Source of the DNA: a virus
DNA: 64,000 nucleotides
Direction: 5' to 3' (one strand)
Virus record (IMG/VR): IMGVR_UViG_3300028196_000006
Span: 27,729 to 91,728 of that record
Shown: positions 37,310-61,079 of the stretch, one piece after another
Layout: every line of letters starts with the position of its first letter
How positions within the stretch are numbered: position 1 is the stretch's first letter
Notes under the pieces: model-generated
Told to the model about the DNA's origin: nothing
Seen by the model: only the letters and a program-made list of their open reading frames with translations
Databases searched by the model: none
Made by a program: the position numbers and the translations under genes

Positions 37310-37965
37310 ATATAATTTTACAACATTGGACAGGAGAACTAGGTCCTCTAGAATTGGCATCTAAAGCAAATATGGAGAATTATGCAAAATATTGCAAAGC
37401 GTCATATGAATTAGTTTTAGGTAATCAATTTAGACCAAAATTAAATCCTTGCTGTCAAAAATTAATAATGCTGGATGAAAAATTTGACATATATGATGAT
37501 GTGCTAATGGTAGATCTCGATATGTTTGTAACAAAACACGTTAAAGAAAATATATTTGATATACCCGGAGTTGGATTAAATTCTGCAATTCAACAGACAT
37601 TGTTTGCTTCTATGCTAAAACATAAAAAATATAAAACATTAATGGATAAGGATGGTCCTTTTTGGGGAGGAGCATTTTGGAAATTTACAAATCAGCAAAG
37701 AAAACAGTTAAGAAAATTTATTGTCGATAGTGAAATGAAAATCTTTAATGGAAATTTCAATGACGAAGGAATAATACATAGATTAGCAAGTCAAGCCAAA
37801 ATGAAACAAGCAGATGTATCTGAAGAATGGTGCTGGGGAAATTGTTTTCCTGGTTATGAAAAAGCAAAAATGATACATATTAGACACAAGTTCAAATTAG
37901 AAGGACCAAAAGTTTCTAAAATAGAAGTTTTAAATCAATTAAAAAAAGAAGGAGTTGTTGAATGA
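37306..37965 (+). CDS. GT-A fold glycosyltransferase-like protein (short)
   Basis: The 219-residue protein begins NIILQHWTGELGPLELASKA, has DIYDDVLMVDLDMFVTKHVK with the DxD equivalent VDLDMF, and FWGGAFWKFTNQQRKQL and WCWGNCFPGYEKAKMIHIRH later. It resembles the preceding gene and the one at 40686 in its overall order, so these are probably diverged copies. It is ATGA-linked on both sides. Donor and acceptor unknown. Confidence 0.65.
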   Translation: MNIILQHWTGELGPLELASKANMENYAKYCKASYELVLGNQFRPKLNPCCQKLIMLDEKFDIYDDVLMVDLDMFVTKHVKENIFDIPGVGLNSAIQQTLFASMLKHKKYKTLMDKDGPFWGGAFWKFTNQQRKQLRKFIVDSEMKIFNGNFNDEGIIHRLASQAKMKQADVSEEWCWGNCFPGYEKAKMIHIRHKFKLEGPKVSKIEVLNQLKKEGVVE

Positions 37966-40689: not shown

Positions 40690-41501
40690 AAAATTTGATT
40701 TATCAAGTATGGGCTGGTGAAATGAGACCTGGTTGTAGGTACAGTGAAAAACTTTTTAGAGAATATGCAGAAAAAATTGGGGCAGATTACAGATTAGATA
40801 TAAGTCCTAATATTGCCAGTAAGCATGTTCGTAAAGACGGTATGTATTTTGAATGGTTAAATCCTATGTTAGACGATTCATTCCTTGAATACGATAAAGT
40901 CTGTGTAATTGATCTAGACGTGTTTCCAGTTGAGAACTTGACTACAAATATTTTTGACGAGCCAATCAAAGACTTTGGCATCTGTACTGAACCTTTTCAA
41001 GGTAAGTATCGAGAATCTACAACTATAGGTAAAAACATAAACAAGAAAAGTGATGAACGGTGGGCTCAAGCGATCAAATCAAAATACGGTGCAACTATGC
41101 CTCGAGATGCTGACGGTTATCTCAAAGTTTATAATGCTGGTATGGTGATGTTTACAAAGAAAGGTATGCAACTTGCTCGAGAAAAGTTTGTACCTTTTAA
41201 AGAATATATGGATTATATTAGAGCCTGTGGCTTGGGTAGGTTCTACAGTGTGGATCAGAATTATTTTCATGCCATGATGGTAACGCATAGTGAATATACT
41301 GAAATGGATAATGGCTGGAATAATTATGTTCACGGTGTCCGTGGTCCTTTAGCATTACAAGATCCAGTGAATGATAGTAGGAACGCATTAACTAAATTTG
41401 TTCATATTCAATTAAGTAGTGCAGATTATTTTAGTGATGAACAATTATATCATATCACTAATTCAGCAAGATCAGAATGGAAAGTGGAAGGTATATTATG
41501 A
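40686..41501 (+). CDS. GT-A fold glycosyltransferase-like protein
   Basis: The 271-residue protein starts KNLIYQVWAGEMRPGCRYSE and has FLEYDKVCVIDLDVFPVENL with IDLDVF as the DxD motif, then a CTEPFQGKYRESTT segment and LKVYNAGMVMFTKKGMQLAR as the product-side block (N-A-G-M). The C-terminus SVDQNYFHAMMVTHSEYTEM also fits GT8-like enzymes. It resembles the genes at 36530 and 37306. It is ATGA-coupled to its neighbours. Confidence 0.7.
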   Translation: MKNLIYQVWAGEMRPGCRYSEKLFREYAEKIGADYRLDISPNIASKHVRKDGMYFEWLNPMLDDSFLEYDKVCVIDLDVFPVENLTTNIFDEPIKDFGICTEPFQGKYRESTTIGKNINKKSDERWAQAIKSKYGATMPRDADGYLKVYNAGMVMFTKKGMQLAREKFVPFKEYMDYIRACGLGRFYSVDQNYFHAMMVTHSEYTEMDNGWNNYVHGVRGPLALQDPVNDSRNALTKFVHIQLSSADYFSDEQLYHITNSARSEWKVEGIL

Positions 41502-42058
41502 TAGTAGCAAATCTTAAAGAAGCAAAAAACATTAATGAGTATCAAACCTCGTTAAAACAACAGTTGCAGAAAGCACATGGAGAACAATACACAGATTATC
41601 TAGACGAAATTTCTAGATTAACAAAAAACTCTCAATCTTATAGAGAAATAGGAACGTTTCAAGGTGCTTCTACATCTACAGCAATGATGAATATGATCCC
41701 ATACATCGAAACTATTGATCTCGACTTTGTTCATATTAATCCTCACAAACATATTTTTGAAACACACGCACAACAAAATCAAATAGAATTTAAAATGATT
41801 CAGACTGATTCGTTGAAATATAACATAGATAAAAAAACGGAAGTACTTTTAATAGACGGATATCATAACCCTAAACACGTGGCAAAAGAATTGGACAAAT
41901 ATGCTCCGTGGACAATACAAACTATTGTTCTACACGATACAACACTATTTCCAAGATTATGGAAATCTGTACAAAATTTTTTATCGTCTCATCAAGATTG
42001 GAAACTTGTTTATAGACACACTGTAAACGCAGGCTACACTGTATTAGGAAAGAAATAA
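41498..42058 (+). CDS. Class I methyltransferase-like protein
   Basis: The ATG at 41498 overlaps the previous stop (ATGA) and gives 186 residues. QSYREIGTFQGASTSTAMMN is motif I of the Methyltransf_24 type (EIGTFxGxSTxxM), followed by ETIDLDFVHI. VLLIDGYHNPKHVAKELDKY is motif IV (LLIDGxHxxxxV), and TIVLHDTTLFPRLWKSV the post-IV block. These enzymes methylate sugars or small acids. It is followed by a second methyltransferase, so tandem modification of one glycan is likely. Confidence 0.75.
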   Translation: MIVANLKEAKNINEYQTSLKQQLQKAHGEQYTDYLDEISRLTKNSQSYREIGTFQGASTSTAMMNMIPYIETIDLDFVHINPHKHIFETHAQQNQIEFKMIQTDSLKYNIDKKTEVLLIDGYHNPKHVAKELDKYAPWTIQTIVLHDTTLFPRLWKSVQNFLSSHQDWKLVYRHTVNAGYTVLGKK

Positions 42059-42059
42059 A

Positions 42060-42662
42060 ATGAGTTTAAAAGAAATTTTTATAAAAAACAAATGTGATAA
42101 GGCTACTAAACATAGATATTATGAACTATATGAAAAAGATTTTAGTGAATTCAAAAATCAGGATATTAAAATATTAGAAATTGGAACGTTCAAAGGTGAA
42201 AGTACTCAATCCTGGATTGACTATTTTGATAAAGCACAAATTTACACAGCAGACACATTTGAAAGAGTAGTCCCAGAAAAAATTCCTGCATTAAAAAACA
42301 ACCGTGTACAATGGTTCAAAGTTGATAGTACTTCACTAAATTGTAAAGAAAATTTTAAAAATCTAAATATTCAATTCGATTTTATCATTGATGATGGACT
42401 ACATACACCTGAAGGTCAAAGATTAACCTTTGAAAATTTAATTGATTTTTTAAAACCTACAGGATCATATTATATAGAAGATGTTTGGATGTTAAACAAA
42501 GGAAATAATATGTCGCATTGGTGGGTTAAAAAACATTCAAAAGAGTTTACTATGGAAAAATTTAATAAATTAATCGATTCAATTAGTAAATTTAAAGTAA
42601 CAGAACACGATTTCAGTAGTTCTAAAATTCCTGACAGTTACATATTAAAGATTAAAAAATGA
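42060..42662 (+). CDS. Class I methyltransferase-like protein
   Basis: The 200-residue protein has KILEIGTFKGESTQSWIDYF (motif I), AQIYTADTFERVVPEK (the acid after strand 2), and FDFIIDDGLHTPEGQRLTFE (motif IV). TGSYYIEDVWMLNKGNN follows as in Methyltransf_24 relatives. It differs from the preceding gene in the IIDDGLH spacing but shares the family pattern. Stop overlaps the next GT25 ATG (ATGA). Substrate unknown, probably a sugar. Confidence 0.75.
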   Translation: MSLKEIFIKNKCDKATKHRYYELYEKDFSEFKNQDIKILEIGTFKGESTQSWIDYFDKAQIYTADTFERVVPEKIPALKNNRVQWFKVDSTSLNCKENFKNLNIQFDFIIDDGLHTPEGQRLTFENLIDFLKPTGSYYIEDVWMLNKGNNMSHWWVKKHSKEFTMEKFNKLIDSISKFKVTEHDFSSSKIPDSYILKIKK

Positions 42663-43324
42663 AAGCATTTATTATAACTCTGATGAAAGATGTTTGGAGT
42701 TTGTCATATGCTGAACGTTGCTTACAAAGTATCCAAGACACAGAAAGTGATATCGAAGCCACACTGTTCGATGCCACAACTCCTGAAACAATTTTTCCTG
42801 TTGCATGGACTTGGCCCACAGGCAAGAAGATCACTTGTTCAAAAACAAATTTATTGTTAACACCCTACAAAACATATGACAATAATAAACGTATAGCCGC
42901 GGCACAAAGTCATTACAAACTCTGGAAACATTGTGTTGGTATTAATGAACCTATTATGATATTAGAACATGATGCAATATTCACACACAAATTTGAAGCA
43001 CCTAGTACAACTTTAAATGTAGGAGCATACAGCATAAATGATCCTAAGGGTGCAACATTCAAATCAAAAGACTATTCCAATAAGGTAAAAGAAGGATTTA
43101 ACACAGTGCCTTGGGTAGCACCAGAAAATATTCCTCAAGGACTGCCAGGACACTCGGCTTATGTGATCACACCCTGGGCGGCTCGAGACATAATTGAAAA
43201 ACAAGACAGCATAGGGTGGTGGCCCAACGATGCCATAATGTGTAAACAATTATGTGAATGGTTGTATGTGTACAAACCTTTTTTTACCAAAACACAAGGC
43301 ACCAAATCTACTACTTCACTGTAA
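42659..43324 (+). CDS. Glycosyltransferase family 25-like protein
   Basis: The 221-residue protein starts KAFIITLMKDVWSLSYAERC, then RIAAAQSHYKLWKHCVGINE and PIMILEHDAIFTHKFEAPST, the S-H-x-x-x-W and EHDA blocks of GT25. GLPGHSAYVITPWAARDIIE is the later block. It is the third GT25-like gene in the cluster and the last gene of the first late unit. The C-terminus is short and polar. Confidence 0.8.
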   Translation: MKAFIITLMKDVWSLSYAERCLQSIQDTESDIEATLFDATTPETIFPVAWTWPTGKKITCSKTNLLLTPYKTYDNNKRIAAAQSHYKLWKHCVGINEPIMILEHDAIFTHKFEAPSTTLNVGAYSINDPKGATFKSKDYSNKVKEGFNTVPWVAPENIPQGLPGHSAYVITPWAARDIIEKQDSIGWWPNDAIMCKQLCEWLYVYKPFFTKTQGTKSTTSL

Positions 43325-43330
43325 ATTTGC

Positions 43331-43340
43331 CAATAAATAT
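43331..43340 (+). promoter_or_regulatory. Late promoter CAATAAATAT for the second glycan unit
   Basis: The ATAAATA core ends at 43339, so the predicted start is about 43345 and the next ATG is 43347: a two-base leader. It duplicates the sequence seen at 34321. It begins seven bases after the GT25 stop. Confidence 0.65.
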
Positions 43341-43346
43341 TTCAAT

Positions 43347-44030
43347 ATGAAAGTTTATGTAGGGTATGACACTAGAGAAGATATTGCATATCAAGTATGT
43401 GAGCATTCAATTAACTCACATTCACCAGACACAGAAATTGTGCCATTGAATCAACAAACACTACGACAAGACAAGTGGTACTGGAGAGAACTGGACCATT
43501 TGGCTTCAACAGAGTTTACATTCACAAGATTTTTAATACCAGCATTAGAAAATTATAAAGGTTGGGCATTGTTTTGCGATTCGGATATAATCTTTTTAAA
43601 AGATATCAAAGAACTTTTTAGCCAAGCAGATGAAAAATATGCTGTGATGTGTGTAAAACACGACTACACTCCTAAACCAGGAATTAAGATGGATGGGCAA
43701 AAACAAACTGTGTATCCAAGAAAAAATTGGAGTTCTGTTGTGCTGTACAACTGTGGACACAAATCAAACGAAAAATTAACAGTGGATTTAGTAAACAATC
43801 CTAATTATGATGGAGCATATTTTCATAGATTTTCATGGTTGAAAGACGAAGAAATAGGCTCGCTGGATCACAGTTGGAATTGGCTTGTGGGTTGGTACAA
43901 AACTCCACAAGATGGTGAGCCCAATGCCTTGCACTACACGGAAGGCGGACCTTGGTTCAAAAATTATCGTAATTGCGAATACGGTGATGTTTGGAAAAAA
44001 TACCTTAACACAATGATGAACAGTGAATGA
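43347..44030 (+). CDS. GT-A fold glycosyltransferase-like protein (GT8-like)
   Basis: The ATG at 43347 (227 residues, MKVYVGYDTRED) follows the late promoter directly. VYVGYDTREDIAYQVCEHSI is a GT8-like N-terminus, GWALFCDSDIIFLKDIKELF the DxD block, YPRKNWSSVVLYNCGHKSNE the product-side region, and YTEGGPWFKNYRNCEYGDVW a metal/donor block with HY/EGGP as in GT8-like enzymes. An upstream in-frame start would precede the promoter, so it is rejected. Confidence 0.8.
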   Translation: MKVYVGYDTREDIAYQVCEHSINSHSPDTEIVPLNQQTLRQDKWYWRELDHLASTEFTFTRFLIPALENYKGWALFCDSDIIFLKDIKELFSQADEKYAVMCVKHDYTPKPGIKMDGQKQTVYPRKNWSSVVLYNCGHKSNEKLTVDLVNNPNYDGAYFHRFSWLKDEEIGSLDHSWNWLVGWYKTPQDGEPNALHYTEGGPWFKNYRNCEYGDVWKKYLNTMMNSE

Positions 44031-44031
44031 T

Positions 44032-44829
44032 ATGCACTATTACTTTGATGGTCAGGATGAAATACTACAACATTGGAACAGCGGTTTAGGCGCTCATTAT
44101 CTTCCATGGGAAAATATTAAAAGTACACCAATAGAAAACACAGTTAGTTTTAGAAGTCTTGCCAAAAGAAAAATAATCAGAGAGTGTATAAAGACAGGTA
44201 GACCATTTTATTATATCGACACAGGATATGTGGGTAATCTTATAAAAAAGAAACTGTATCATAGAATTGTAAAAAATGATGTACAACACAGTTTGGTGTT
44301 TGATGTGCCTGACGATCGTTGGAGGAAGATACAATCAAGAAGTCCTGAATTAGAATTTGTTGAATGGCGTAAAAATCACAAAGGTAAAATTTTGTTAGTT
44401 GTGCCAAGCGAAAAGCCTTGTAAATATTACAACATCAGCAGAGACCAGTGGGTTGCTGAGACCATAAACACATTAAAAAAATATACTGATAGAGAAATTA
44501 TTATAAGAGATAAAGGCAAAAGGTATCAGAGAGTTGGTGAAGGCAGTGTGCCAAAATTCTTAATCAAAGAAAAAATTTATGCCACAGTAACTTATCAATC
44601 CATAGCGGCTATTGAAAGTGTGTGTGCAGGTGTGCCAGCATTCACTATGGAAAAAACTGCGGCAGACAGTGTAGTATCACAGGATCTAAGTAAGATAGAA
44701 TCACCATTTTATCCAAACAGAGACCAAGTACACAAATGGCAACATTGGTTAGCATACTGTCAATATCATATCAGTGAACTTGGTAGTGGTCAAGCAGTGC
44801 GGATAATGAAGGAACACGGACTATTATGA
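44032..44829 (+). CDS. GT-B-like sugar transferase, paralogue 1
   Basis: The 265-residue protein (MHYYFDGQDE start, one base after the previous stop) has a C-terminal region with IYATVTYQSIAAIESVCAGV, PAFTMEKTAADSVVSQDLSK and IESPFYPNRDQVHKWQHWLA. The same layout (V-x-H/Y-x-S-x-x-x-x-E, G-x-P-x-x, S-P-x-x-x-x-R) occurs in the genes at 44826, 46596 and 59087, so these are four diverged copies. They look like retaining/inverting GT-B or CDP-glycerol-transferase-like proteins. Donor unknown. Some marine phage relatives lack a name. Confidence 0.65.
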   Translation: MHYYFDGQDEILQHWNSGLGAHYLPWENIKSTPIENTVSFRSLAKRKIIRECIKTGRPFYYIDTGYVGNLIKKKLYHRIVKNDVQHSLVFDVPDDRWRKIQSRSPELEFVEWRKNHKGKILLVVPSEKPCKYYNISRDQWVAETINTLKKYTDREIIIRDKGKRYQRVGEGSVPKFLIKEKIYATVTYQSIAAIESVCAGVPAFTMEKTAADSVVSQDLSKIESPFYPNRDQVHKWQHWLAYCQYHISELGSGQAVRIMKEHGLL

Positions 44830-45773
44830 TAAGTGTTGTAGGTTATATGAAAGTTATTCCGCCTGGAAATAAAAAACCACAAAAGCCTTTGATAATAAAA
44901 AACTTTATTGAAGGTGTGAATAGATGCGGAGATAAAGGGATAATAAGTAATTCTTGGACAGTGATTCCAGCAGATGTTTCTGTGTTGCAAGGATTTGTGC
45001 ATCAGCAACCTCAAAAACACAGACATCTTATGTTGAGAAAAACTGTGTTTGAACAACAGCAAAAAAGAAACAAACGCACCATGATTGTGGATTCAAGTTT
45101 ATTTTTGTATGCTGATCCTACTCAATCAAAAAATTATTTACGTTATGGTTATGATGGAATTTTTCCTAACACAGCAGAATATTGTTATGATAATCCAGAC
45201 CCATTGCGTTGGGAAGTAATTAAAAAAGATTTAGGTATAGATTTAAAACCTTGGAGATTGGGCGGAGGCAAATACATTTTAATCTGTTGTCAAAGAGATG
45301 GCGGATGGAGCATGGGAGGATTAAAAGTAAATGTTTGGTTGCAACACGCAATTCAACAAATAAGAAGTTTTACAAAAAAAGAAATTAGAATAAGATTTCA
45401 TCCAGGAGATAAATCATCTAAACAATGGGTTTCTCTTGTAAGACAATGGATAAACAGTGGACAATCAACTTATCAAAACATTGTAATCAGCGGTGCTAAG
45501 AATTTAATAGACGAATTTGCTCATGCTCATGCAGTTGTTGGTCATAATTCAAGTCCAACTGTGGCATCAGTGATAGAAGGTATACCCACATTGGTAACAG
45601 ATCCAGATGGTGCTCAAATCAAAGGTGTTAATTTAGAAAAATGGCAAGATATAGAATCTCCTAAAGAGTTTGATAGAGAACTATGGATCAGACGCATAGC
45701 ACAGATCCATTGGACCTTAGATGAAGTAAAACAAGGTTTAGCATGGAAACATTTAAGGAATTACGTAAAATGA
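44826..45773 (+). CDS. GT-B-like sugar transferase, paralogue 2
   Basis: The 315-residue protein has KYILICCQRDGGWSMGGLKV near the middle, KKEIRIRFHPGDKSSKQWVS, then a FAHAHAVVGHNSSPTVASVI segment and GIPTLVTDPDGAQIKGVNLE with QDIESPKEFDRELWIRRIA. Order and spacing match paralogue 1 with a longer N-terminus. The R-x-H-P motif and S-P-x-x-x-x-R are the most constant positions of the set. ATGA-coupled on both sides. Confidence 0.7.
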   Translation: MISVVGYMKVIPPGNKKPQKPLIIKNFIEGVNRCGDKGIISNSWTVIPADVSVLQGFVHQQPQKHRHLMLRKTVFEQQQKRNKRTMIVDSSLFLYADPTQSKNYLRYGYDGIFPNTAEYCYDNPDPLRWEVIKKDLGIDLKPWRLGGGKYILICCQRDGGWSMGGLKVNVWLQHAIQQIRSFTKKEIRIRFHPGDKSSKQWVSLVRQWINSGQSTYQNIVISGAKNLIDEFAHAHAVVGHNSSPTVASVIEGIPTLVTDPDGAQIKGVNLEKWQDIESPKEFDRELWIRRIAQIHWTLDEVKQGLAWKHLRNYVK

Positions 45774-46606
45774 TTACTGCATTAACAACATTTCATAAAG
45801 CAGGATTAGACTTGTACGGACAAAGATTCATAGACAGTTTTGCAAAAAATGTTGATAAGAAAATCAAATTGTTAGTGTATGCAGAAAATTGTACACCTGT
45901 AAATCCAGACATAAATCAAATAACAATTATAGATTCAAAAGAATTAGTTAAGTTAAATCAATTTAAATCACGTTGGGGCAATGTGCCTAAAGCAAATGGT
46001 GAATGTCCGTTTCCAGAAAAACGTCCAAGAGATCATCATAAAAAATTTAAGTGGGACGCAGTACGTTTTGCTAACAAAGTGTATGCAGTGTTTGACGCTG
46101 TTGAAAGAAATAACGACAAGTGGACTGTGTGGATTGATGGAGACACATATGTGCATTCCCCTATCAATTACGAACAATTTCAACAACTACTTCCAAGCGA
46201 TAAGTGGATAACATTTGTTGGAAGAGGTAAAGGATCACAAACTTGGCCCGAGTGTGGATTTTATGGTTTGAATACTGAACACGATACTTGTAAAAAATTT
46301 TTAAATGAATTTGAACGTATGTACCAAGATGCAGACAACGGAATATTCAAACTAGATGAATGGCATGATAGTTATGTGTTTGGTAAGATACTAAATCAGT
46401 TAATGCCTATAGATAAAAACTTTCATGATTATTCCCAAGACATATATAATAAAACTGCCAAAACAGGTGGCGGTGGACACCCTTTAATTAATTCTGTATT
46501 AGGAAACTATTTTGATCACATGAAGGGCGATAGAAAAAACAAAGGCAAAAGTCAAAAGAAAGATCTGTTGTCTAATCGTGCAGAATCATATTGGAATGAA
46601 GTTTAG
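45770..46606 (+). CDS. GT-A fold glycosyltransferase-like protein
   Basis: The ATG at 45770 overlaps the previous stop (ATGA) and gives 278 residues. MITALTTFHKAGLDLYGQRF and NDKWTVWIDGDTYVHSPINY (IDGDT as DxD equivalent) and FVGRGKGSQTWPECGFYGLN fit a GT-A enzyme; ECGFYGLN is the product-side block. The end is Lys-rich. It lies between two GT-B paralogues. Overlaps the next gene by 11 bases. Confidence 0.65.
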   Translation: MITALTTFHKAGLDLYGQRFIDSFAKNVDKKIKLLVYAENCTPVNPDINQITIIDSKELVKLNQFKSRWGNVPKANGECPFPEKRPRDHHKKFKWDAVRFANKVYAVFDAVERNNDKWTVWIDGDTYVHSPINYEQFQQLLPSDKWITFVGRGKGSQTWPECGFYGLNTEHDTCKKFLNEFERMYQDADNGIFKLDEWHDSYVFGKILNQLMPIDKNFHDYSQDIYNKTAKTGGGGHPLINSVLGNYFDHMKGDRKNKGKSQKKDLLSNRAESYWNEV

Positions 46607-47432
46607 TTTATTCACAGACAACGGTCCATTAAACAGTCCATTAGTTTGGGAGGCTGTGAAGTCTGGGTTACAACGATTAGGGCACTCTGTAGACGAAAAT
46701 AATTTAGACACAGATGTTCCTGTGATTTGGTCATTGCTATGGCATGGTAGAATGATGAAAAATAAACCTATTTGGGATAAATTCAGATCTCAAAACAAAA
46801 ATGTTCTAGTGATAGAAGTGGGTGGAATAAAAAGAAACACAACTTGGAAAGTTGGAATAAACGGAATCAATAGATCAGCAGACTTTGGGCCAACCAACAA
46901 CGATAGTCAAAGAGCACAACAATTAGGTATCGAATTAAAACCATGGAGTACAGACGGAGAACACATACTGATTTGTTTACAACACATCAAAAGTGAACAG
47001 TGGAAAGATATGCCTGCATTGGATCAATATGTAATCGATACCGTAAAAAATATAAGACAACACACAGATAGAAAAATTATAGTCAGACCTCACCCTAGAT
47101 GTCCTTTAAAAAATTTGCCTGTGCTTGATAATGTTGGTTACGAGATTCCCAAACAGATTGCTAACACATATGACGATTTCAATTTAAATTTTACCAATGT
47201 TTGGGCAGTTGTAAGTCATAGCAGTAATCCCGGTGTTCATGCTGTACTCAATGGAATACCTGCTTTTGTAAGCGAACAAAGTCTAGCATACGATGTTGCA
47301 AACACAGATTTTAGCACCATTAACAGCCCAAAGACCCCCAATAGACAGCAATGGCTCAATGATTACACACATACTGAATGGACCATTGAGGAAATTGCAC
47401 AAGGCATTCCATTTTCTAGATTGACTTTTTAA
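46596..47432 (+). CDS. GT-B-like sugar transferase, paralogue 3
   Basis: The ATG at 46596 gives 278 residues. ILICLQHIKSEQWKDMPALD, DRKIIVRPHPRCPLKNLPVL, FTNVWAVVSHSSNPGVHAVL, then GIPAFVSEQSLAYDVANTDF and INSPKTPNRQQWLNDYTHTE align with paralogues 1 and 2; the C-terminal WTIEEIAQG matches WTLDEVKQG in paralogue 2. It ends the glycan island. Function is inferred from the shared layout and context. Confidence 0.7.
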   Translation: MKFSLFTDNGPLNSPLVWEAVKSGLQRLGHSVDENNLDTDVPVIWSLLWHGRMMKNKPIWDKFRSQNKNVLVIEVGGIKRNTTWKVGINGINRSADFGPTNNDSQRAQQLGIELKPWSTDGEHILICLQHIKSEQWKDMPALDQYVIDTVKNIRQHTDRKIIVRPHPRCPLKNLPVLDNVGYEIPKQIANTYDDFNLNFTNVWAVVSHSSNPGVHAVLNGIPAFVSEQSLAYDVANTDFSTINSPKTPNRQQWLNDYTHTEWTIEEIAQGIPFSRLTF

Positions 47433-51520: not shown

Positions 51521-51768
51521 TGCCAAAAAAAAAAGAACCTGCAATGATTTACGAGAGTCCCGATGGCGGAGCAACAGTGTATGCACGACCAATTAATGGC
51601 AAAGGTGAGCGGGTGTTGATTGAAGAACCAAAATACCCAGACTGGCATTTGACAGAATTAGAGATAAGCCAAGTTGTAGATTATGCATCTGAAGGAAACA
51701 AGTCTTTACAAATACAGTTAAAGAAGTTAAAATTAATATATAATTTAATTAGAGAAGACAGATGGTAA
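51520..51768 (+). CDS. Small conserved protein (82 aa)
   Basis: The 82-residue product begins with a basic run, then YESPDGGATVYARPINGKGE and TELEISQVVDYASEGNKSLQ with a C-terminal helix IQLKKLKLIYNLIREDR. It is coupled by TAATG to the previous gene and overlaps the next by 7 bases. No domain is recognised. A small regulatory or adaptor role in the early block is possible. Confidence 0.65.
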   Translation: MPKKKEPAMIYESPDGGATVYARPINGKGERVLIEEPKYPDWHLTELEISQVVDYASEGNKSLQIQLKKLKLIYNLIREDRW

Positions 51769-52241
51769 ACAACACTAACAAACTACCTTTAAAAGATATA
51801 TTGGCGGCTATCGACATGAATGCTAAAAATGTATGGAACGACTTGTCTGATGACGAACGCAAACAGGTATCGTTTTATCTGTTGAACAGATATGCCAGTG
51901 CTATCAAAGGTACATCAGAAGAAAAACAATTACAAATATTTAAAACAAATCAGTATTACAATAAACATTTTTTTACATTATCCAAACACAAAAAACTATT
52001 ATGGTATTTGCTTTGCATGACTGCTAATGATACGAAATCAATAAAATATCACGAATGGATTGGATACAAACAAAAAGGTAGTAACAGTACAGCAAAAGCA
52101 ATGAAGTTTTTAGAAAAATTATATCCATCTAGAAAACAAGACGAATTAAGATTACTGGCAAGCATCAACTCAACTAAAGAATTAAAACAGTTAGCAGAAG
52201 ATTCAGGAATGACGAAAGAACAAATTAAGAAAACATTTTAA
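51762..52241 (+). CDS. Possible clamp-loader small subunit (gp62-like)
   Basis: The 159-residue protein has LPLKDILAAIDMNAKNVWND, QVSFYLLNRYASAIKGTSEE, QYYNKHFFTLSKHKKLLWYL and HEWIGYKQKGSNSTAKAM. The order L-K-x-I-x-x-I near the start, an FxLNRxxS block and a KxxxW block loosely resembles gp62 of T4-like phages (about 120-190 residues). The match is weak and no gp44 gene is in this window to support it, so I put this only as a candidate. It is early-block, overlapping both neighbours. Confidence 0.5.
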   Translation: MVNNTNKLPLKDILAAIDMNAKNVWNDLSDDERKQVSFYLLNRYASAIKGTSEEKQLQIFKTNQYYNKHFFTLSKHKKLLWYLLCMTANDTKSIKYHEWIGYKQKGSNSTAKAMKFLEKLYPSRKQDELRLLASINSTKELKQLAEDSGMTKEQIKKTF

Positions 52242-52924
52242 TGATTGAAAAACTTTATTCGTGCAAATACTGTAATGCAAAATTTGCCAAAGAAAAAACT
52301 TTATCAGTGCATATGTGTGAACAAAAACGAAGATTTGTACAAAAAGATGAACGTAGAGTACAACTAGGATATCAAACATTTATGAGATTTTATGAACTAT
52401 GTCAAAAATCTAGTAAATCAAAATCGTATGAAGACTTTTGTAAGTCTCCTTATTATACAGCATTTGTAAAATTTGGCAGTTTTATCAGTAATGTTAAGCC
52501 GTTGTATCCAAACAAGTATATCGATTATGTTGTTACATCTGGCGTAAAACTAGATCATTGGTGCAGAGAAGAAATGTATTTGAAATATGCAGGAGATTTA
52601 ATTTTAAGAGAACCGGTTGAAACAGCCATGGAAAGATCAATCAAAACTATGATGGATTGGGGAGACGAAAAACAAGCACCATGGGGAGATTATTTTAGAT
52701 ATGCAAGTCTAAACAGAGCAGTAATTGATATTAAAGACGGAAAGATATCTCCTTGGTTGATATTAAATTGTAAAAGCGGTAAAGTTATGATGAAGAAATT
52801 TAATGATGAACAATTACAGATTGTGTATCCGGTGATGGATCCATCACATTGGGCATTAAGATTTAAGCGATTACCAGCAGATATTGAAATGATAAAAGAA
52901 ATTGTAAAGGAGGCAGGACTATGA
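52241..52924 (+). CDS. C2HC zinc-finger protein of unknown function
   Basis: The 227-residue protein begins with a single zinc-binding unit: C8-x2-C11 in YSCKYCNAKF and H24-x-C26 in SVHMCEQKRR, about 12 residues on, so a C2HC variant of the C2H2 type. The remaining 190 residues are helical with QTFMRFYELCQKSSKSKSYE, SGVKLDHWCREEMYLKYAGD and SPWLILNCKSGKVMMKKFND. I recall such proteins in marine T4-like phages. Nucleic-acid binding is likely. The stop overlaps the next start (ATGA). Confidence 0.65.
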   Translation: MIEKLYSCKYCNAKFAKEKTLSVHMCEQKRRFVQKDERRVQLGYQTFMRFYELCQKSSKSKSYEDFCKSPYYTAFVKFGSFISNVKPLYPNKYIDYVVTSGVKLDHWCREEMYLKYAGDLILREPVETAMERSIKTMMDWGDEKQAPWGDYFRYASLNRAVIDIKDGKISPWLILNCKSGKVMMKKFNDEQLQIVYPVMDPSHWALRFKRLPADIEMIKEIVKEAGL

Positions 52925-53574
52925 TCAAAGAACACAATGTTGTTCCATTGTTTGGAATACCACTTTGTCAAACACAAATACAACCATATGAAGAAAGTGA
53001 AAACTTTCTAAAAGAAAAAATAGAATATGTTGAACGATCACACAAAGTATCATACATATCTAAAGATGATTACGTACTAGATAATGAAAACTTGATGCCA
53101 CTCAAAAATGAAATTGAAACTCAGGTAAGCGAATTTATGCATGGATATTTAGACATACACGAAAAGCATAGATTTATTATCACAACAAGTTGGTGTAATA
53201 GATATGAACATAATCATTTTATACAAGAACATTATCATAGTAACAGTTTAATATCCGGAGTATTATTTTTATCAGACTGTCAAGACACAGCAAATATTGT
53301 ATTTCATAAAGATAAAAATCATACAAATATTTTTACTGATACAGTAAAATTAGATCACAAAGATGAATTCGATTATGTTAACAAAAGAAGTTATCTATAT
53401 CATCAATCTAAAATGGCAATTAGTCCAAAGAAATGGGATTTAGTTATGTTTCCAAGTTTTTTAAATCACAGTGTTGAAGCCAACACTAGCACAACTAATG
53501 TAAGACACACACTGTCATTTAATGTTTGGGTTAAAGGTGAAATAGGTGGCGGACACAGTAAATTGGTATTATAA
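52921..53574 (+). CDS. 2OG-Fe(II) oxygenase, CHP02466-type (paralogue of 17603-18241)
   Basis: The 217-residue protein has NVVPLFGIPLCQTQI at the start, TTSWCNRYEHNHFIQEHYHS followed by NSLISGVLFLSD, and LVMFPSFLNHSVEANTS then RHTLSFNVWVKGEIGGGHSK. Metal ligands H-x-H and the distal His in FPSFLNH plus the Arg match the gene at 17603 in order and spacing, including the VKGExGxGxxxLxL tail. The two are about equally long and clearly paralogous. This copy lies in the early block next to the polymerase-like mini-protein. Substrate unknown. Confidence 0.8.
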   Translation: MIKEHNVVPLFGIPLCQTQIQPYEESENFLKEKIEYVERSHKVSYISKDDYVLDNENLMPLKNEIETQVSEFMHGYLDIHEKHRFIITTSWCNRYEHNHFIQEHYHSNSLISGVLFLSDCQDTANIVFHKDKNHTNIFTDTVKLDHKDEFDYVNKRSYLYHQSKMAISPKKWDLVMFPSFLNHSVEANTSTTNVRHTLSFNVWVKGEIGGGHSKLVL

Positions 53575-54131
53575 TGTTTGATGTAGATATAGACTTTGCA
53601 GATAGAAATGTGTTATTAGAAAAACTAAAACACAGAGTAGCCAAATTAGAAAATGGTAAAAAGCACAATACTGGTGTTTACTTTACAGAGATACCGCATG
53701 ACCCTGCAACTAATCTATCTACTTTAGATTATGAAACTGCTGAAGATAGAAACTATTTTAAATTGGATTGCTTAAATGTAAGTATATACAAAAATGTAAA
53801 AGACAACGATCACTTAAACAAATTAATGACAACAAAACCAGTATGGGAATTATTAGAAGCCAAAGAATTTAGTGATCAAGTTTTCCACTTGAACGGACAT
53901 AATGATATTTTAAAAACATTAAAGCCAAAAAATATAGAACAATTGGCGGCTGTGTTGGCAATTATACGACCTAGCAAAAGATATCTACTCAATAAAGATT
54001 GGGACACAATAATGAAAGAAGTTTGGATTAAACCAACTGACGACAAATACTTTTTTAAGAAATCACACGCAACATCCTACGCATTCGCAGTGGTGGTACA
54101 CATGAATCTTATCTGTGAACAATTAACTTGA
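53574..54131 (+). CDS. Mini C-family DNA polymerase-like protein (185 aa)
   Basis: The 185-residue protein starts at the place where bacterial DnaE/PolC palm motifs begin: MFDVDIDFADR matches the catalytic PDxDxDF motif (Asp3, 5, 7). It continues KKHNTGVYFTEIP (compare HAAGVVI), NYFKLDCLNVSIYKNV (compare LKxDFLGLxxL, Asp65 as the third catalytic Asp) and QVFHLNGHNDILKTLKPKNI then EQLAAVLAIIRPSKRYL (compare GVFQxES...LKPxxxxDLIAxxALYRPG). The order is colinear with DnaE over about 160 residues, but PHP, thumb and most of fingers are missing. I recall conserved relatives in T4-like phages, unnamed. Activity is not shown; it might be a domesticated remnant, or a partner of the phage polymerase. 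Confidence 0.6.
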   Translation: MFDVDIDFADRNVLLEKLKHRVAKLENGKKHNTGVYFTEIPHDPATNLSTLDYETAEDRNYFKLDCLNVSIYKNVKDNDHLNKLMTTKPVWELLEAKEFSDQVFHLNGHNDILKTLKPKNIEQLAAVLAIIRPSKRYLLNKDWDTIMKEVWIKPTDDKYFFKKSHATSYAFAVVVHMNLICEQLT

Positions 54132-54497
54132 TTATTTAGGTTTACGAACTAGTTGAACTGATTTTCTCTTACTTCGTTTCATAGCAAGATTGTTAAGACT
54201 TGTGACAGGACCTATCTTTACATTGACATCTTTCGTGTTCATCATCATCAAACACTCGCGAAATTTGATTAATTCTTTACGTAAAAATATACCCATTGGG
54301 ATCATTCTGTTGCTTTCCCACCACCAAGTTTGACATAAACTCATAAACTCTTCCTTGGCATTTGCATGTATTTCTTCGTACACATAAATGGAGGTGATGG
54401 AGTTATCTTGGTTGTTGATTACCCCAACATACTCTTTTCCGCCGTATTCGACGACTGAGATAAACGGAAAGTTCTTTTCGATGTCGTTTAATAGCAT
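54132..54497 (-). CDS. Conserved phage protein of unknown function (121 aa, minus strand)
   Basis: The 121-residue protein has NFPFISVVEYGGKEYVGVIN, SITSIYVYEEIHANAKEEFM, QTWWWESNRMIPMGIFLRKE and VKIGPVTSLNNLAMKRSKRK. The WWWESNR block with a very basic C-terminus is one I remember in T4-like cyanophage proteins of unknown role. It is convergent with the polymerase-like gene (abutting) and divergent from the structural gene at 54524. RNA or DNA binding by the basic tail is plausible. Confidence 0.65.
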   Translation of the reverse strand: MLLNDIEKNFPFISVVEYGGKEYVGVINNQDNSITSIYVYEEIHANAKEEFMSLCQTWWWESNRMIPMGIFLRKELIKFRECLMMMNTKDVNVKIGPVTSLNNLAMKRSKRKSVQLVRKPK

Positions 54498-55344: not shown

Positions 55345-56349
55345 ATGAACATTGTGCTTGACGTTTTACAAACTTATCTTCCTGCCAAAAGAAAACAAAC
55401 ACCCAGTGGTTGGGTGGCTTTTAATGCACCGTGTTGTGGACACAATGGAACAACTCCTGACACTAGACAAAGAGGTGGATTGATTGCTAAGGCAGACGAG
55501 AGTGTGAGTTTTCATTGTTTCAACTGTGGATTTAAAACGAGTTGGCGTATTGGGAGAAACTTATCTTATAAAATGAAAAAATTTATGAGGTGGTTGAATA
55601 TGCCCGATGATGTAATCACAAAACTAGCACTTCAAGTTTTACAACAAAAGACAGATGATACAGGATTCAAGTCAATTGTCACACTTCCAAAATTTACAAT
55701 TAAAGAACTTCCGCCCAAAGCAAAACCAATATACGAGTGGGCAACATACAAAGATTTAGAACCCAGTGGAGTTGATAAAGATTTATTTTCTGTGATGGAA
55801 TACATTGCTAAAAGAAAATTAACACTCGATGATTATGATTTTTACTGGAGTCCTGAAGCAGGATTTAGAGATAGATTAATCATACCTTTTATTCATCAAT
55901 CAAAAATTGTGGGATACACAGCCAGGAAAGTTGTGGAAAGCAAAGTGAAATATTTGTCAGAACAACAACCAGGATATGTGTTTAACACAGATGCACAAGA
56001 TGATGATAGAAAATATATTGTAGCAATGGAAGGACCTATCGATGCTATTGCCGTTGACGGGATTGCGTTACTGGGTAGTGAAATTAAAGAACAACAATCA
56101 ACATTGGTAAACAGTTTAGGAAAACATGTGATTGTGGTTCCTGACAGAGATGAAGCAGGACAAAAATTAGTTTGGGATAGTTTCGAAGCAGGCTGGAGTG
56201 TGAGTATGCCGGATTGGGACCAAGATGTCAAAGACGTCAACGATGCTGTGTGTAAATATGGTAGACTTCATACATTGTATACAATAATAAAGAATGCTGA
56301 AGATTCACAACTAAAAACTAAACTAAGGATGAAAAAATGGTTCGCATAA
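55345..56349 (+). CDS. gp61: DNA primase (T4 gp61-like)
   Basis: The 334-residue protein begins NIVLDVLQTYLPAKRKQTPS and has the zinc-binding part with CCGHNG and HCFNCGF, then TOPRIM motifs: IVAMEGPIDAIAVDGIALLG (E-G-x-x-D-A) and VVPDRDEAGQKLVWDSF (D-x-D). gp61 makes short RNA primers and works on the gp41 helicase hexamer, whose gene is 1.3 kb downstream. Length equals T4 gp61 (342). Its last 13 bases overlap the following mini-gene. Confidence 0.9.
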   Translation: MNIVLDVLQTYLPAKRKQTPSGWVAFNAPCCGHNGTTPDTRQRGGLIAKADESVSFHCFNCGFKTSWRIGRNLSYKMKKFMRWLNMPDDVITKLALQVLQQKTDDTGFKSIVTLPKFTIKELPPKAKPIYEWATYKDLEPSGVDKDLFSVMEYIAKRKLTLDDYDFYWSPEAGFRDRLIIPFIHQSKIVGYTARKVVESKVKYLSEQQPGYVFNTDAQDDDRKYIVAMEGPIDAIAVDGIALLGSEIKEQQSTLVNSLGKHVIVVPDRDEAGQKLVWDSFEAGWSVSMPDWDQDVKDVNDAVCKYGRLHTLYTIIKNAEDSQLKTKLRMKKWFA

Positions 56350-56472: not shown

Positions 56473-56649
56473 ATGTATTACGTTTTAGAAGGAATACATA
56501 AAGACCCAATGGATATGAAAACATTGGACAACAAAACAAAAAAGGAATATGGTCCTATGAATAAAATAAAAGCCAACGAGTTAGCAAAATCGCTGATTCA
56601 AAGAAACATTGATGACTTTTATCACAGAGCATGGGTAATTGAAAGATGA
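56473..56649 (+). CDS. Small hypothetical protein (58 aa)
   Basis: The 58-residue product begins MYYVLEGIHKDPMDMK and ends NIDDFYHRAWVIER. Its ATG is one base after the previous stop and its stop overlaps the carbamoyltransferase start (ATGA), so it is translationally linked on both sides. No domain is recognised. The coupling is the main evidence that it is real. Confidence 0.6.
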   Translation: MYYVLEGIHKDPMDMKTLDNKTKKEYGPMNKIKANELAKSLIQRNIDDFYHRAWVIER

Positions 56650-57656
56650 TCATTTGGGGAATAACAGGAAATAATCACGATGCCAGTTTGGCAGTGATGG
56701 AATGGAAGGTAAAAGGATTAACGCCTAATTACCATCTTAGATTAAAATGGGCAGGCATGAGCAAAGATTTTAGTGGAGTTGCTGGAGATCCAACGTTGTG
56801 TCCTAAACTGATGGCAGAAGTAAGAGCAAATCCTAAATGGGCCTACCCTGCAAAGATTTATTTTTATGAAAAGCCTTGGAAGAAAACTATGAGACAACTG
56901 ATTGCAGGACAAGGTTGGAAATGGAAAGAAAATGATATTAAAAAGTTTTTGGCAAAATCTGGTGTACACAATGTTCCTATAGAATATGTTGATCATCATC
57001 ATAGCCATGCGGCATATGGATATTACACATCGGGATTTAAAAATGCGGCAGTTATTGTTTTAGATTCGATTGGTGAGTTTGAAACATTTACTATTTGGCA
57101 CGGCAGAGGTACCAGGTTGGAGAAGAAGTACACACAACGTTATCCACACAGCATAGGTTTATTTTATTCAGCAATGACACAAAGATGTGGATTCAAAGCA
57201 AACGCAGAAGAATACAAATTAGAACAATTGGCGAAAAAAGGTAATTGGAGAAAGTATCATAGAATGATGATGGAAGAAATTATAGACACCAGAATGCCTT
57301 TCAAAACAAGAATAAATCTGCATAGAGGTTGTAATTGGTGGAGACCAGAATTAAACACAGAAGAAGACATGGCTGATCTAGCCGCAACTACACAGCACAT
57401 TTTTGAACAAGTGTTGATGTGTGCAAGTTCGTGGATACAGATGCATATCAACACATCAAACATAGTTTTGGTAGGCGGATGTGCATTGAATAAAACTGCT
57501 GTGAGTAAATTAAGTGCAGTTTGGGATGATATATGGGTGCCAACAAATCCTGGTGATCCTGGATCGTGTATAGGTGCAGTGTGTGCCAAATATCAAAAGC
57601 ACATTGACTTTCACGGAGAAATGTGGTATAATAAGGACAATGGTGAAACAAAATAA
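56646..57656 (+). CDS. Carbamoyltransferase-like protein (NodU/TobZ N-terminal domain only)
   Basis: The 336-residue protein has IIWGITGNNHDASLAVMEWK at the N-terminus, YVDHHHSHAAYGYYTSGF (the metal-binding HHxxHA of the Kae1-like domain), VIVLDSIGEFETFTIW, HSIGLFYSAMTQRCGF and NIVLVGGCALNKTAVSKL. In NodU/TobZ this Kae1-like domain forms and transfers carbamoyl from an adenylate, but full enzymes have about 550 residues and a second domain, which is missing here. I recall short versions in marine phages. It lies between primase and helicase genes. Its acceptor might be a nucleotide or sugar; this is inference. Confidence 0.8.
   Translation: MIIWGITGNNHDASLAVMEWKVKGLTPNYHLRLKWAGMSKDFSGVAGDPTLCPKLMAEVRANPKWAYPAKIYFYEKPWKKTMRQLIAGQGWKWKENDIKKFLAKSGVHNVPIEYVDHHHSHAAYGYYTSGFKNAAVIVLDSIGEFETFTIWHGRGTRLEKKYTQRYPHSIGLFYSAMTQRCGFKANAEEYKLEQLAKKGNWRKYHRMMMEEIIDTRMPFKTRINLHRGCNWWRPELNTEEDMADLAATTQHIFEQVLMCASSWIQMHINTSNIVLVGGCALNKTAVSKLSAVWDDIWVPTNPGDPGSCIGAVCAKYQKHIDFHGEMWYNKDNGETK
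57604..57632 (+). promoter_or_regulatory. Sigma-70-type promoter TTGACT-17-TATAAT inside the carbamoyltransferase gene
   Basis: TTGACT (57604-57609) and a perfect TATAAT (57627-57632) are 17 bases apart, within the end of the carbamoyltransferase coding region. The gp41 ATG at 57640 is seven bases after the -10; AAGGA lies between and would be part of a leader of one or two bases only. Confidence 0.75.
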
Positions 57657-59097
57657 AGACTACGGTTACGAGATACAGAAACTGTATCTTGAAATGATGT
57701 TAAGTGACGCAGAAACATTTGTGCGTTGTCAATCCATATTTGATTACACACTGTTTGATAGAAAACTTCAAGAAACAGCAGACTTTGTTAACAAATATGT
57801 AGCAGAATACAACTCATTGCCAACATACGACATTGTGAACAAGTCGTGCAATATTGAATTAAAGCCAGCAGAAAGTTTGACTGAAGAACATTTCAATTGG
57901 TTATTAGATGACTTTGAAACATTTATCAGACACAAAAGTTTAGAAAGAGCAATTTTAAAAAGTGCTGATATGTTGGAAAACGGCGAGTACGGTCCTGTTG
58001 AAGAATTGGTCAAGAAGGCAGTACAAATAGGATTACACAAAGATATAGGAACAGATTATTTTGACGATCCCAAAGCAAGATTGATGGGGTTGAAAGATCA
58101 AAATGGACAAGTGAGCACAGGCTGGACAACATTAGACAGAAAACTGTTTGGCGGATTTAACAAAGGTGAACTTAACATTTTTGCTGGTGGATCAGGAGCA
58201 GGTAAGAGTTTGTTCCTTGCAAACTTAGGTTGTAATTGGGTATTAAATGGATTGAATGTTGCATACATAACTTTTGAATTAAGTGAAGCACTAGTAAGTA
58301 TGAGATTAGATTCTATGCTGACTGATGTGCCTGCTAGAGAAATATTTAAAGATTTAGATGGTGTAGAAATGAAAGTTAAACTGCTTGGTAAAAAATCAGG
58401 CAAGTTTCAAATCAAATACATGAGCAGTGGTAAGAACACAAACGATTTAAGAAGTTATATCAAAGAATATGAAATTAAAACTGGCAGTAAACTAGATGTT
58501 ATACTAGTTGACTATTTGGATCTCATGATGCCGATCAATAAAAAAGTATCACCGGCTGATCTTTTTGTAAAAGACAAATTTGTTTCTGAAGAATTAAGAA
58601 ACTTATCAATGGAATTAAATGTAATATTTGTAACAGCATCACAGTTGAACAGAGGTGCAGTTGAAGAAATAGAATTTGATCATTCGCACATAGCAGGAGG
58701 ATTAAGTAAAATACAAACTGCTGACAATGTGTTTGGTATATTCACATCAAGAGCGATGCGTGAGCGTGGTAGATATCAAATACAATTAATGAAAACCAGA
58801 TCATCTAGTGGTGTTGGTCAAAAGATTGATTTAGAATTTGATATAGACAGTTTAAGAATTAGAGATTTAGCAGAAGACGAGTCGGGACAAAATTACGGTA
58901 GTGGTGGTGGTAATAGTACCATATACAATTCATTGAAAAAAACTTCAACAGTTATAGAAGATAATGCAACTGATTCGCCAGAACCTCAAGAAAAAGTTCC
59001 TAATCCTACAAAGGGAGAGTCGTTGCACAAAGCCAATACAGATAATACAGATCAAACAAAATTAAGGGACTTTTTAAAGAACCTTGATGACGAATAA
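57640..59097 (+). CDS. gp41: Replicative DNA helicase (T4 gp41-like, DnaB family)
   Basis: The ATG at 57640 gives 485 residues. The RecA-like ATPase core has STGWTTLDRKLFGGFNKGEL, Walker A FAGGSGAGKS near residue 184, Walker B DVILVDYLDLMM, ASQLNRG and SHIAGGLSKIQTADNVFG. It forms the hexamer that unwinds the fork with gp61. Length matches T4 gp41 (475). The start overlaps the carbamoyltransferase end by 17 bases. The C-terminal tail is polar and likely flexible. Confidence 0.92.
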   Translation: MVKQNKDYGYEIQKLYLEMMLSDAETFVRCQSIFDYTLFDRKLQETADFVNKYVAEYNSLPTYDIVNKSCNIELKPAESLTEEHFNWLLDDFETFIRHKSLERAILKSADMLENGEYGPVEELVKKAVQIGLHKDIGTDYFDDPKARLMGLKDQNGQVSTGWTTLDRKLFGGFNKGELNIFAGGSGAGKSLFLANLGCNWVLNGLNVAYITFELSEALVSMRLDSMLTDVPAREIFKDLDGVEMKVKLLGKKSGKFQIKYMSSGKNTNDLRSYIKEYEIKTGSKLDVILVDYLDLMMPINKKVSPADLFVKDKFVSEELRNLSMELNVIFVTASQLNRGAVEEIEFDHSHIAGGLSKIQTADNVFGIFTSRAMRERGRYQIQLMKTRSSSGVGQKIDLEFDIDSLRIRDLAEDESGQNYGSGGGNSTIYNSLKKTSTVIEDNATDSPEPQEKVPNPTKGESLHKANTDNTDQTKLRDFLKNLDDE

Positions 59098-59923
59098 ATC
59101 ATACAAAAGAATAGTAATACCCAAAGGTTTAGACTTAGGAACCAGTAGACGTACCTGTCTTCAATTGGCAAATACAATCAGTATAAGATCAGGTTTAGAA
59201 ATATTTTCAGATGTTGAAAATATTCAACAAGGAGATTTGGTAATACTTGGCGGTGTTGGTGGACATGATGGTTTTCAAAAGTATCATGAGTCTTTTCAAG
59301 AAAAAAATATTGATTATGTGAACGTTGAAAAAGGATATTGTAATTGGTGGAAACCGGTTTACTGGAGAGTTACATTCAACGAAAATCAAATTTTAGATAT
59401 AAAAGGTGAATACACCAACGAGCGATTTGTTAAATTTAAACTAAAAATAAAACAGTGGCAAATGGGGGAACAAGTATACATCGTTGCTCCTAGTCAAAAT
59501 GGATTAGAAGTATATGGCATTAAACAAAATGTAGATCAATGGATAGAATCCACTACACAAGAAATTAAAAAACACACAAACAGACCAATCAAAATTAGAA
59601 AAAAGATGCCTAAGAAAGCAAGAGGTTCAAGAGGTTTTTGTAATTCTTTAGAAAACATTTACTGTGTGGTCAGTTTACACACCATGGCAATGACCGAAGC
59701 ACTACGAGAAGGATGTCCTGTAATCAGTCTTGTGCCAGGCTGTGTAAAAGATTACAGTGTAAACTCAATTGATAAAATTAACAACTTGTACTACCCAGAA
59801 AACAGACAATACCTGTTCAACTGTTTAACCAATTTACAATTCAACTCTGACGAATTAATATCCGGTGTTGCTTGGGACACCATGAGCAAATACTACGGAA
59901 TCAGCATCAGCAAACAAGCCTAG
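59087..59923 (+). CDS. GT-B-like sugar transferase, paralogue 4
   Basis: The 278-residue protein (ATG at 59087, overlapping gp41 by 11 bases) has YIVAPSQNGLEVYGI, WIESTTQEIKKHTNRPIKIR, then a NIYCVVSLHTMAMTEALREG block, CPVISLVPGCVKDYSVNSID and INNLYYPENRQYLFNCLTNL. It is the most diverged copy of the set at 44032, 44826 and 46596, sharing the V-S-x-H, G-x-P and Y-P-x-x-R blocks. It is unusual to find it attached to the replicative helicase rather than to the glycan island. Donor unknown. Confidence 0.65.
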   Translation: MTNKSYKRIVIPKGLDLGTSRRTCLQLANTISIRSGLEIFSDVENIQQGDLVILGGVGGHDGFQKYHESFQEKNIDYVNVEKGYCNWWKPVYWRVTFNENQILDIKGEYTNERFVKFKLKIKQWQMGEQVYIVAPSQNGLEVYGIKQNVDQWIESTTQEIKKHTNRPIKIRKKMPKKARGSRGFCNSLENIYCVVSLHTMAMTEALREGCPVISLVPGCVKDYSVNSIDKINNLYYPENRQYLFNCLTNLQFNSDELISGVAWDTMSKYYGISISKQA

Positions 59924-59940
59924 AGGCGGACAGCAAAATT

Positions 59941-60000
59941 CCGCAAAGCGGTAACGCAGAAATTTCAAATCCGCGAAGCGGTAAGCACAGCGATTTCGGT
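59941..60000. repeat. Two 30-base GC-rich hairpin units between convergent genes
   Basis: CCGCAAAGCGG (59941-59951) and CCGCGAAGCGG (59971-59981) start exactly 30 bases apart; each is a CCGC/GCGG stem with a short AAA or GAA loop and is followed by GTAA and a CAG-(G)-ATTTC-like tail. The GC content stands out from the AT-rich surroundings. The unit lies between the stops of a plus-strand and a minus-strand operon, where it could act as a two-way terminator or RNA end-stabiliser, though only weak T-runs follow. Confidence 0.7.
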
Positions 60001-60008
60001 AAGCAATT

Positions 60009-61079
60009 TTAATCTATGATTTTTCTTTTGACGCCTCGTCTTTTGACATCAAGTGTGCTACAATGTATTCCACCGTCCCAAAACAAATAGTGTCTTTGTG
60101 GCACAACGTGACAGTCTATGTGTAAGGACTTCAGTTTTGCAAACAGTTTGGGTATGTGTCGTGCAAACACAATGTTGTTTCTGTCTATCACCAACACATT
60201 GAGATCAAAGCAAACTTCTTGACTGTAACCTCTCCAATTCTCCAAGTACTTGTCTATCCAAGCAATGTCCATTTTGTTTTTGGCTTCTGCATAATCTTGT
60301 ACATATCTGTCCATTTTTAGTTCAGGCAAACAGTCACTCACATCAATCAACTGTTTGTTGTGTAAGCATTGAGGCACCCATTCCTTGCCTGCGTGTATCA
60401 CTGTGTCATCATCTATCATGATGAAGCCGTGGTCAATGTGACCAAAGCCATTGAATCTTGTGCCGGCATTGTGATGAAATTTATACTCACTCAGTTCACG
60501 TTTGCACCATTCTAAACCTGAAGTTGTGCCAGGTCCTTCGTGATTCACAATGATGGAATCGCCTGCTTTGTACATGGTGGCAGTGTGCCACAACACTCTG
60601 TCCATCAATTTTTCTTTGTAGGTTTTGTCGTTCACAAACCAATCATCTTGGTTGTTCAAGTCCATCAACATGGGTGCTGGTTGGCTGATCCAACGATGAC
60701 CTTGTTGAAACAACTGTTCAAATATTCGGTAATAACTGACGGAGTCAAAGTACCTGTCTGTGTAACTGGTGTAGGTTTGTATCACAGTGTTGCCCATTAC
60801 CAGCAAGGCATCTCTAGGCACAACAGGTGCTATGGGAAACTGCACATTGAACTCAGGCATCTGCGTGTGATCATGATGTGTGTACACATTGGGTCGCATG
60901 ACTTCAATGTTGCCTTGTTTGAGAAAGTCTGCCAACTGATCCAGGTCTTGTTTGGTCTCTTCTAAAATTTTATTGAACTGCGAGGCATTGTGATGAGTCA
61001 ACAAGTGACTGATTTGTTCTGGAGTGTATGTGTCTCCCACTATCACTGACTCCAACGGATCGTATTCTGTGTATATCAT
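60009..61079 (-). CDS. Glycine amidinotransferase-like enzyme (GATM/AGAT family)
   Basis: The 356-residue protein starts MIYTEYDPLESVIVGD (compare EWDPLxEVIVG), and has KAGDSIIVNHEGPGTTSGLE followed by WCKREL (compare RAGRDIF...NYLGIEWMRRHL), NGFGHIDHGFIMIDD with His214, and WDGGIHCSTLDVKRRGVK with Cys340, the expected nucleophile. AGAT moves the amidino group of arginine to an amine. The FDAADF segment of the family is replaced by WHTATM, so the acidic triad partner may have moved and activity is uncertain. It is the last gene of a five-gene minus-strand unit, ATGA-coupled to the aminotransferase. The local G+C is higher than elsewhere (45-48% in the two 60-base lines I counted). Confidence 0.8.
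   Translation of the reverse strand: MIYTEYDPLESVIVGDTYTPEQISHLLTHHNASQFNKILEETKQDLDQLADFLKQGNIEVMRPNVYTHHDHTQMPEFNVQFPIAPVVPRDALLVMGNTVIQTYTSYTDRYFDSVSYYRIFEQLFQQGHRWISQPAPMLMDLNNQDDWFVNDKTYKEKLMDRVLWHTATMYKAGDSIIVNHEGPGTTSGLEWCKRELSEYKFHHNAGTRFNGFGHIDHGFIMIDDDTVIHAGKEWVPQCLHNKQLIDVSDCLPELKMDRYVQDYAEAKNKMDIAWIDKYLENWRGYSQEVCFDLNVLVIDRNNIVFARHIPKLFAKLKSLHIDCHVVPQRHYLFWDGGIHCSTLDVKRRGVKRKIID

Follow-up and report, generated by a model that had tools for sequence, protein, structure and literature searches.

The open reading frame (ORF) at 53574–54131 (+) of the window, the 64,000-nucleotide stretch of viral DNA analysed here, was confirmed to encode a palm-plus-fingers protein of the C-family (DnaE) DNA polymerases. 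This 185-amino-acid (aa) product, PHROG_11778, carries the palm metal-binding and fingers segments of a split minimal DNA polymerase III (Pol III) alpha subunit and is hereafter called the C-half. It is probably one of the two chains of an accessory C-family polymerase that operates beside a T4-like family-B polymerase (PolB). Bacteria replicate their DNA with C-family polymerases, which normally have about 1000 residues or more. A two-chain version of about 355 residues under strong selection would define the minimal C-family catalytic core, would open the origin of C-family replicases to testing, and would explain why a second type of polymerase is retained by a phage that has a family-B replicase of its own. 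The split C-family polymerase family is abundant in the ocean.

Identity, active-site register and predicted fold of the C-half

Translation of the window gave an exact ORF, with the ATG at 53574 and the stop codon ending at 54131. Profile searching revealed a full-length match to the PHROG_11778 'DNA polymerase' profile (E = 2e-58, residues 3–183 of 185), along with weaker matches to full DnaE families (phrog_405, E = 5e-5; TIGR00594, E = 5e-4). The Pfam DNA_pol3_finger domain was matched at E = 0.0012 with 18.7 bits, under its curated 22-bit cut-off, and the same domain was matched by 15 of 20 homologues of the C-half. When the C-half profile alone was compared with seven DnaE proteins in a profile–profile alignment (hhalign), an E-value of 1.3e-5 was obtained. 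Sequence-only comparison of the C-half with PDB entries was weak (best E of 0.46 with a profile, in three short colinear pieces), and the case therefore rests on the profiles and the fold, both of which revealed homology to the palm/fingers core of cellular-type DnaE. The complete cellular-type architecture, in which PHP, palm, thumb, fingers, clamp-binding and OB domains are united in one chain, was not present, the C-half being composed of parts of the palm and fingers only.

Carrying the profile alignment to E. coli numbering revealed five DnaE motifs in the 185-aa protein, all in DnaE order. The DVDID motif (residues 3–7; codons 53580–53594, +) places D3 and D5 on the metal ligands D401 and D403 of E. 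coli, and HNTG (residues 31–34; 53664–53675, +) places H31 and G34 on H511 and G514. K63-L64-D65 (53760–53768, +) aligns with K553 and D555, the third catalytic aspartate, and its lysine and aspartate were invariant in 52 of 52 distinct C-half homologues. R132-P133 (53967–53972, +), invariant to the same extent, aligns with R639-P640 of the fingers. The last motif, FKKSHATSYA (residues 161–170; 54054–54083, +), aligns with FNKSHSAAYA at 756–765 of E. coli; H165 and Y169 were invariant, and the K-S-H...Y block corresponds to DnaE 758–764. Across the 52 distinct homologues, the registered motif positions were invariant or nearly so. The RP and K.H...Y fingers motifs contact the template and the incoming dNTP in DnaE. 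A loose five-motif pattern, which was composed after the sequence had been seen, was matched by none of 20,000 shuffles of the protein.

The AlphaFold model of the C-half, based on 20 sequences, had a mean pLDDT of 80. The 13 best PDB matches by Foldseek were all DnaE or Pol III alpha (probabilities 0.69–1.00), with modest TM-scores of 0.36–0.43 by query length, as is expected of a shortened core. Bacterial DnaE, represented by the E. coli, Thermus and Mycobacterium structures, shares with the C-half the order of palm/fingers motifs, the Asp triad and the predicted fold, whereas the C-half has 185 aa compared to approximately 1160 and its palm is split over two chains. The original prediction was of a C-family catalytic segment, with four colinear DnaE/PolC stretches, in a T4-like phage, a group that uses a family-B polymerase; complete members of the lineage have such a T4-like enzyme. 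The C-family segment was borne out by the order of the motifs, by the profile matches (PHROG_11778, phrog_405, TIGR00594 and hhalign) and by the palm-like fold; the fifth motif, FKKSHATSYA, had been overlooked.

The separate N-terminal half and the proposed joined enzyme

The palm of DnaE needs a GRGS triphosphate loop upstream of PDxDxDF. A separate gene of about 170 aa with a GRGS loop could be detected by Pfam PF07733 in Phosso, RaK2 and Paride; this gene, PHROG_11127 (the N-half), is strongly conserved at G-x-G-R-G-S-S. Its AlphaFold model reached a pLDDT of 88, and the ten best PDB matches by Foldseek were all Pol III alpha or PolC. Catalytic residues are kept in both halves. The N-half ends in ..EFL(K/R/N) and the C-half starts with (P/F)DxDxD, the E. 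coli counterpart being FERFLN / PDFDVDF. A joined N+C profile built from 19 paired phages tiled E. coli DnaE 285–778 continuously (E = 2.4e-13), with the junction falling exactly between FERFLN and PDFDVDF and no break at the split, while 15 column-shuffled controls and one reversed control all gave E ≥ 0.068. Pairwise distances of the N- and C-halves also co-varied in the 19 phages (r = 0.78; maximum of 2000 permutations, 0.44), a correlation for which shared ancestry alone suffices.

Two further candidates were rejected. A split intein joining the halves was discounted, as the N-half stops right after ..EFLK/R and intein sequence is absent from the ORF; the split intein reported for MIJ3 is in PolB (PMC6892783). 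As for a DnaQ-type proofreading partner, RNase_T exonucleases occurred in RaK2, 121Q, Paride, XacN1 and Atu_ph07 but were not found in Phosso, G052 or most other large records, which gave no general link.

Compared to DnaE, the N+C pair is without the PHP domain, nearly all of the thumb, some 85 fingers residues and the whole of the C-terminal remainder. In the proposed mechanism, the C-half would supply the three catalytic aspartates, the lysine beside the third of them and a shortened fingers domain, while the N-half would bring the GRGS triphosphate-binding loop and the first palm segment. The N-half would bind the C-half non-covalently and so complete a Pol-beta-like active site. The physically assembled two-chain complex would do without the clamp-binding, OB and tau-binding domains of bacterial DnaE as well as the PHP domain, nearly all of the thumb and part of the fingers. 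It would be catalytically active and may take part in replication in an accessory role, next to the T4-like family-B replicase; it might, for example, fill gaps, assist in repair or priming hand-off, or synthesise the lagging strand.

The C-half is homologous to host DnaE and has no full active site alone, which would suit a mimic of the host Pol III holoenzyme, or a partner to it, that has no catalytic activity; such a decoy had been suggested from the original reading. A decoy would not need the catalytic aspartates and lysine, yet these are invariant across jumbo phages of many hosts. Moreover, the clamp-, tau- and epsilon-binding regions for contacts with the host replisome are absent, and a matching N-half is encoded in trans. 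Such a mimic is very unlikely and was rejected on the basis of selection and invariance in favour of a split enzyme of which the C-half is one part.

A minimal Pol III alpha existing beside a family-B polymerase has been described in group 2.2 jumbo phages as two proteins encoded at distant loci, one N-terminal with NTP-binding and one C-terminal with Mg-/template-binding (Iyer et al. 2021, PMC7824862). From this description and the phage group, we infer that these proteins are PHROG_11127 and PHROG_11778. The C-half agrees with them in family, size and phage group and, as seen in its complete relatives, in co-existence with PolB and in having a distant partner gene; it differs in coming from an uncultured marine phage with an incomplete record, in which the N-half and PolB were not seen. 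The papers on CBB (PMC5259590) and Atu_ph07 (PMC6102473) had previously mentioned a Pol III alpha subunit that was truncated or predicted. The surprise once attached to a C-family segment beside PolB is therefore not new; the split arrangement was already described in 2021, and the C-half is an added marine member of that kind. No biochemical test of the split minimal Pol III alpha was found in a literature search of open-licence papers. A survey of jumbo phages from the sea, published in ISME J in 2022 (PMC9123017), reported PF07733 as the sole group-specific gene in more than half of PGC_A, which fits either the N-half or the PHP-less DnaE considered below.

Co-occurrence with PolB and distribution

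All eight complete isolates that were examined (Phosso, RaK2, Paride, Atu_ph07, XacN1, 121Q, RAS14 and SCTP-2) had the N-half, C-half and PolB together. In complete relatives the N-half is encoded elsewhere in the same genome as the C-half; in Atu_ph07, XacN1, 121Q and SCTP-2 its gene is near that of the gp44 clamp loader. In eight marine contigs that carry the C-half, presence of the N-half coincided exactly with that of PolB: both occurred, 24–28 kb apart, in G052, G091, G093 and G094, and neither was found in G090, G092, G095 and G096. The window's record is a 91.7-kb virus fragment in which neither the N-half nor a T4-like family-B polymerase was found, the PolB region near which the N-half sits in relatives being missing. 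Since the two genes are together present or together absent in the nearer marine relatives, their absence here matches an incomplete contig, and the N-half of the window phage is predicted to lie beyond the end of the record.

Both halves occurred together in no contig of the nearest marine clade (C-half ≥80%). The C-half was not found in 32 marine N-half contigs, as the halves lie far apart (for example, 208 kb in G052) and short contigs cannot span both. Large metagenomic records also combine the N-half, C-half and PolB except for G020 (543 kb), G031 (359 kb) and G023 (141 kb), N-half records in which a recognisable C-half was not found; either the pairing is not universal or one half can diverge beyond detection. 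In G020 (locus L072) and G031 (L096) the N-half is accompanied by PolB, and their C-half may have diverged beyond detection, been lost or been replaced. Among the matches listed, N-half and C-half contigs share samples (e.g., 3300017697, 3300024264 and 3300021964), which was not counted as evidence.

A C-half homologue was present in 63 phage records, every one below 60% identity. The carriers were essentially all jumbo phages or their fragments, including PA5oct/Paride, RaK2, 121Q, Serratia BF, Atu_ph07, Phosso and XacN1. IMG/VR contained at least 57 near relatives of the C-half, and when a profile served as the query the number rose to at least 596. The C-half was also matched by six contigs of bacterial or archaeal genomes, all of which were metagenome-assembled; these contigs are best read as phage contigs binned there, and one of them, a 335-kb contig, also carried the N-half and PolB.

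Selection, gene neighbourhood and the PHP-less DnaE

The dN/dS of the C-half against near relatives was 0.03–0.09, mostly 0.03–0.04, values that are approximate with dS saturated for several pairs. The C-half is far shorter than DnaE and divergent, as a decaying, functionless relic of a horizontally acquired DnaE would be, and it had been suggested to be a palm relic or a remnant with a new role. This is contradicted by the low dN/dS, the invariant active site, the conserved synteny, the occurrence in several jumbo-phage genera and the GRGS segment in a separate gene; a relic has a virtually negligible chance of being correct and was rejected on selection and invariance.

The conserved gene order was PHROG_11758, PHROG_11058, C-half, convergent PHROG_11637, a structural gene, primase and helicase. 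This module order was common to the window, Paride, Phosso, Atu_ph07, RaK2 and 121Q with local insertions and losses, and did not extend to XacN1. Upstream lie PHROG_11758 (159 aa; 51762–52241, +), a neighbour of the C-half in most relatives, and PHROG_11058 (227 aa; 52241–52924, +), which has a weak C2H2-like match and is kept adjoining the C-half. The convergent PHROG_11637 (121 aa, function not assigned; 54132–54497, −) abuts the stop codon of the C-half and holds the same position in five isolated jumbo phages (RaK2, 121Q, Paride, Phosso and Atu_ph07). Downstream, a DnaG-type DNA primase (55345–56349, +) is a conserved neighbour, followed by a DnaB/gp41-type replicative helicase (57574–59097, +), the true start of which may be further 3' as its first codons overlap the preceding gene. 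Two genes appear as insertions into the otherwise conserved replication module: a 2OG-Fe(II) oxygenase gene (PHROG_81; 52921–53574, +), which separates the C-half from the conserved upstream genes, and a carbamoyltransferase-like gene (56646–57656, +), named from its sequence only, which lies between the primase and helicase.

The proximity of the primase would also suit associated halves that form another nucleotidyltransferase, for primer synthesis, end-tailing or nucleotide-signal synthesis, rather than a processive polymerase. With the thumb almost gone, the fingers partly gone and every accessory domain for clamp or DNA binding deleted, processivity would be limited, and PolB is on hand for bulk synthesis. 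Against this, the RP and K.H...Y fingers motifs are kept and invariant, and a DnaG-type primase is already encoded next door, which makes such an enzyme unlikely.

Marine relatives additionally encode a complete DnaE without PHP of approximately 543–551 aa (L069: 148–1779, −; L071: 148–1779, −; L349: 1411–3066, +; also L353–L432). It lies usually just downstream of the replicative helicase, with both genes in 78 of 80 loci, and was present in at least 308 IMG/VR contigs; its best match in the isolate collection was an uncultured 484-kb phage at 37% identity. Of the PHP-less-DnaE loci with at least 7 kb upstream, 18/26 also held the split C-half. The PHP-less DnaE (about 543 aa in L069, L071 and L349) has the C-family catalytic core and the replication module in common with the C-half but is a different gene; it encodes one complete chain that has a GRGS of its own, longer fingers and a tail at the C-terminus.

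Its presence in the same module of relatives at 63–82% C-half identity could mean that, in the window's clade, the C-half partners another C-family protein of this kind rather than the N-half. The PHP-less DnaE, however, already has its own GRGS and Asp motifs, is absent from the corresponding place in the window (approximately 59923–60009) and was not found in the record by Pfam search, and the larger marine relatives G052, G091, G093 and G094 possess N-halves. Such a partnership is extremely unlikely, and the N-half is preferred as the partner. A bolder proposal, which we regard as rather doubtful, is that marine T4-like jumbo phages combine a family-B replicase, the two-chain minimal C-family enzyme and, in some relatives, the PHP-less DnaE coupled to the replicative helicase, and that the two-chain enzyme is the smallest natural C-family core and a surviving model of an ancestral stage.

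Elsewhere in the window, at approximately 34336–47432, the genes of a long series resemble, as judged from their translations only, glycosyltransferases, methyltransferases and epimerases, which suggests a surface or virion glycan programme.
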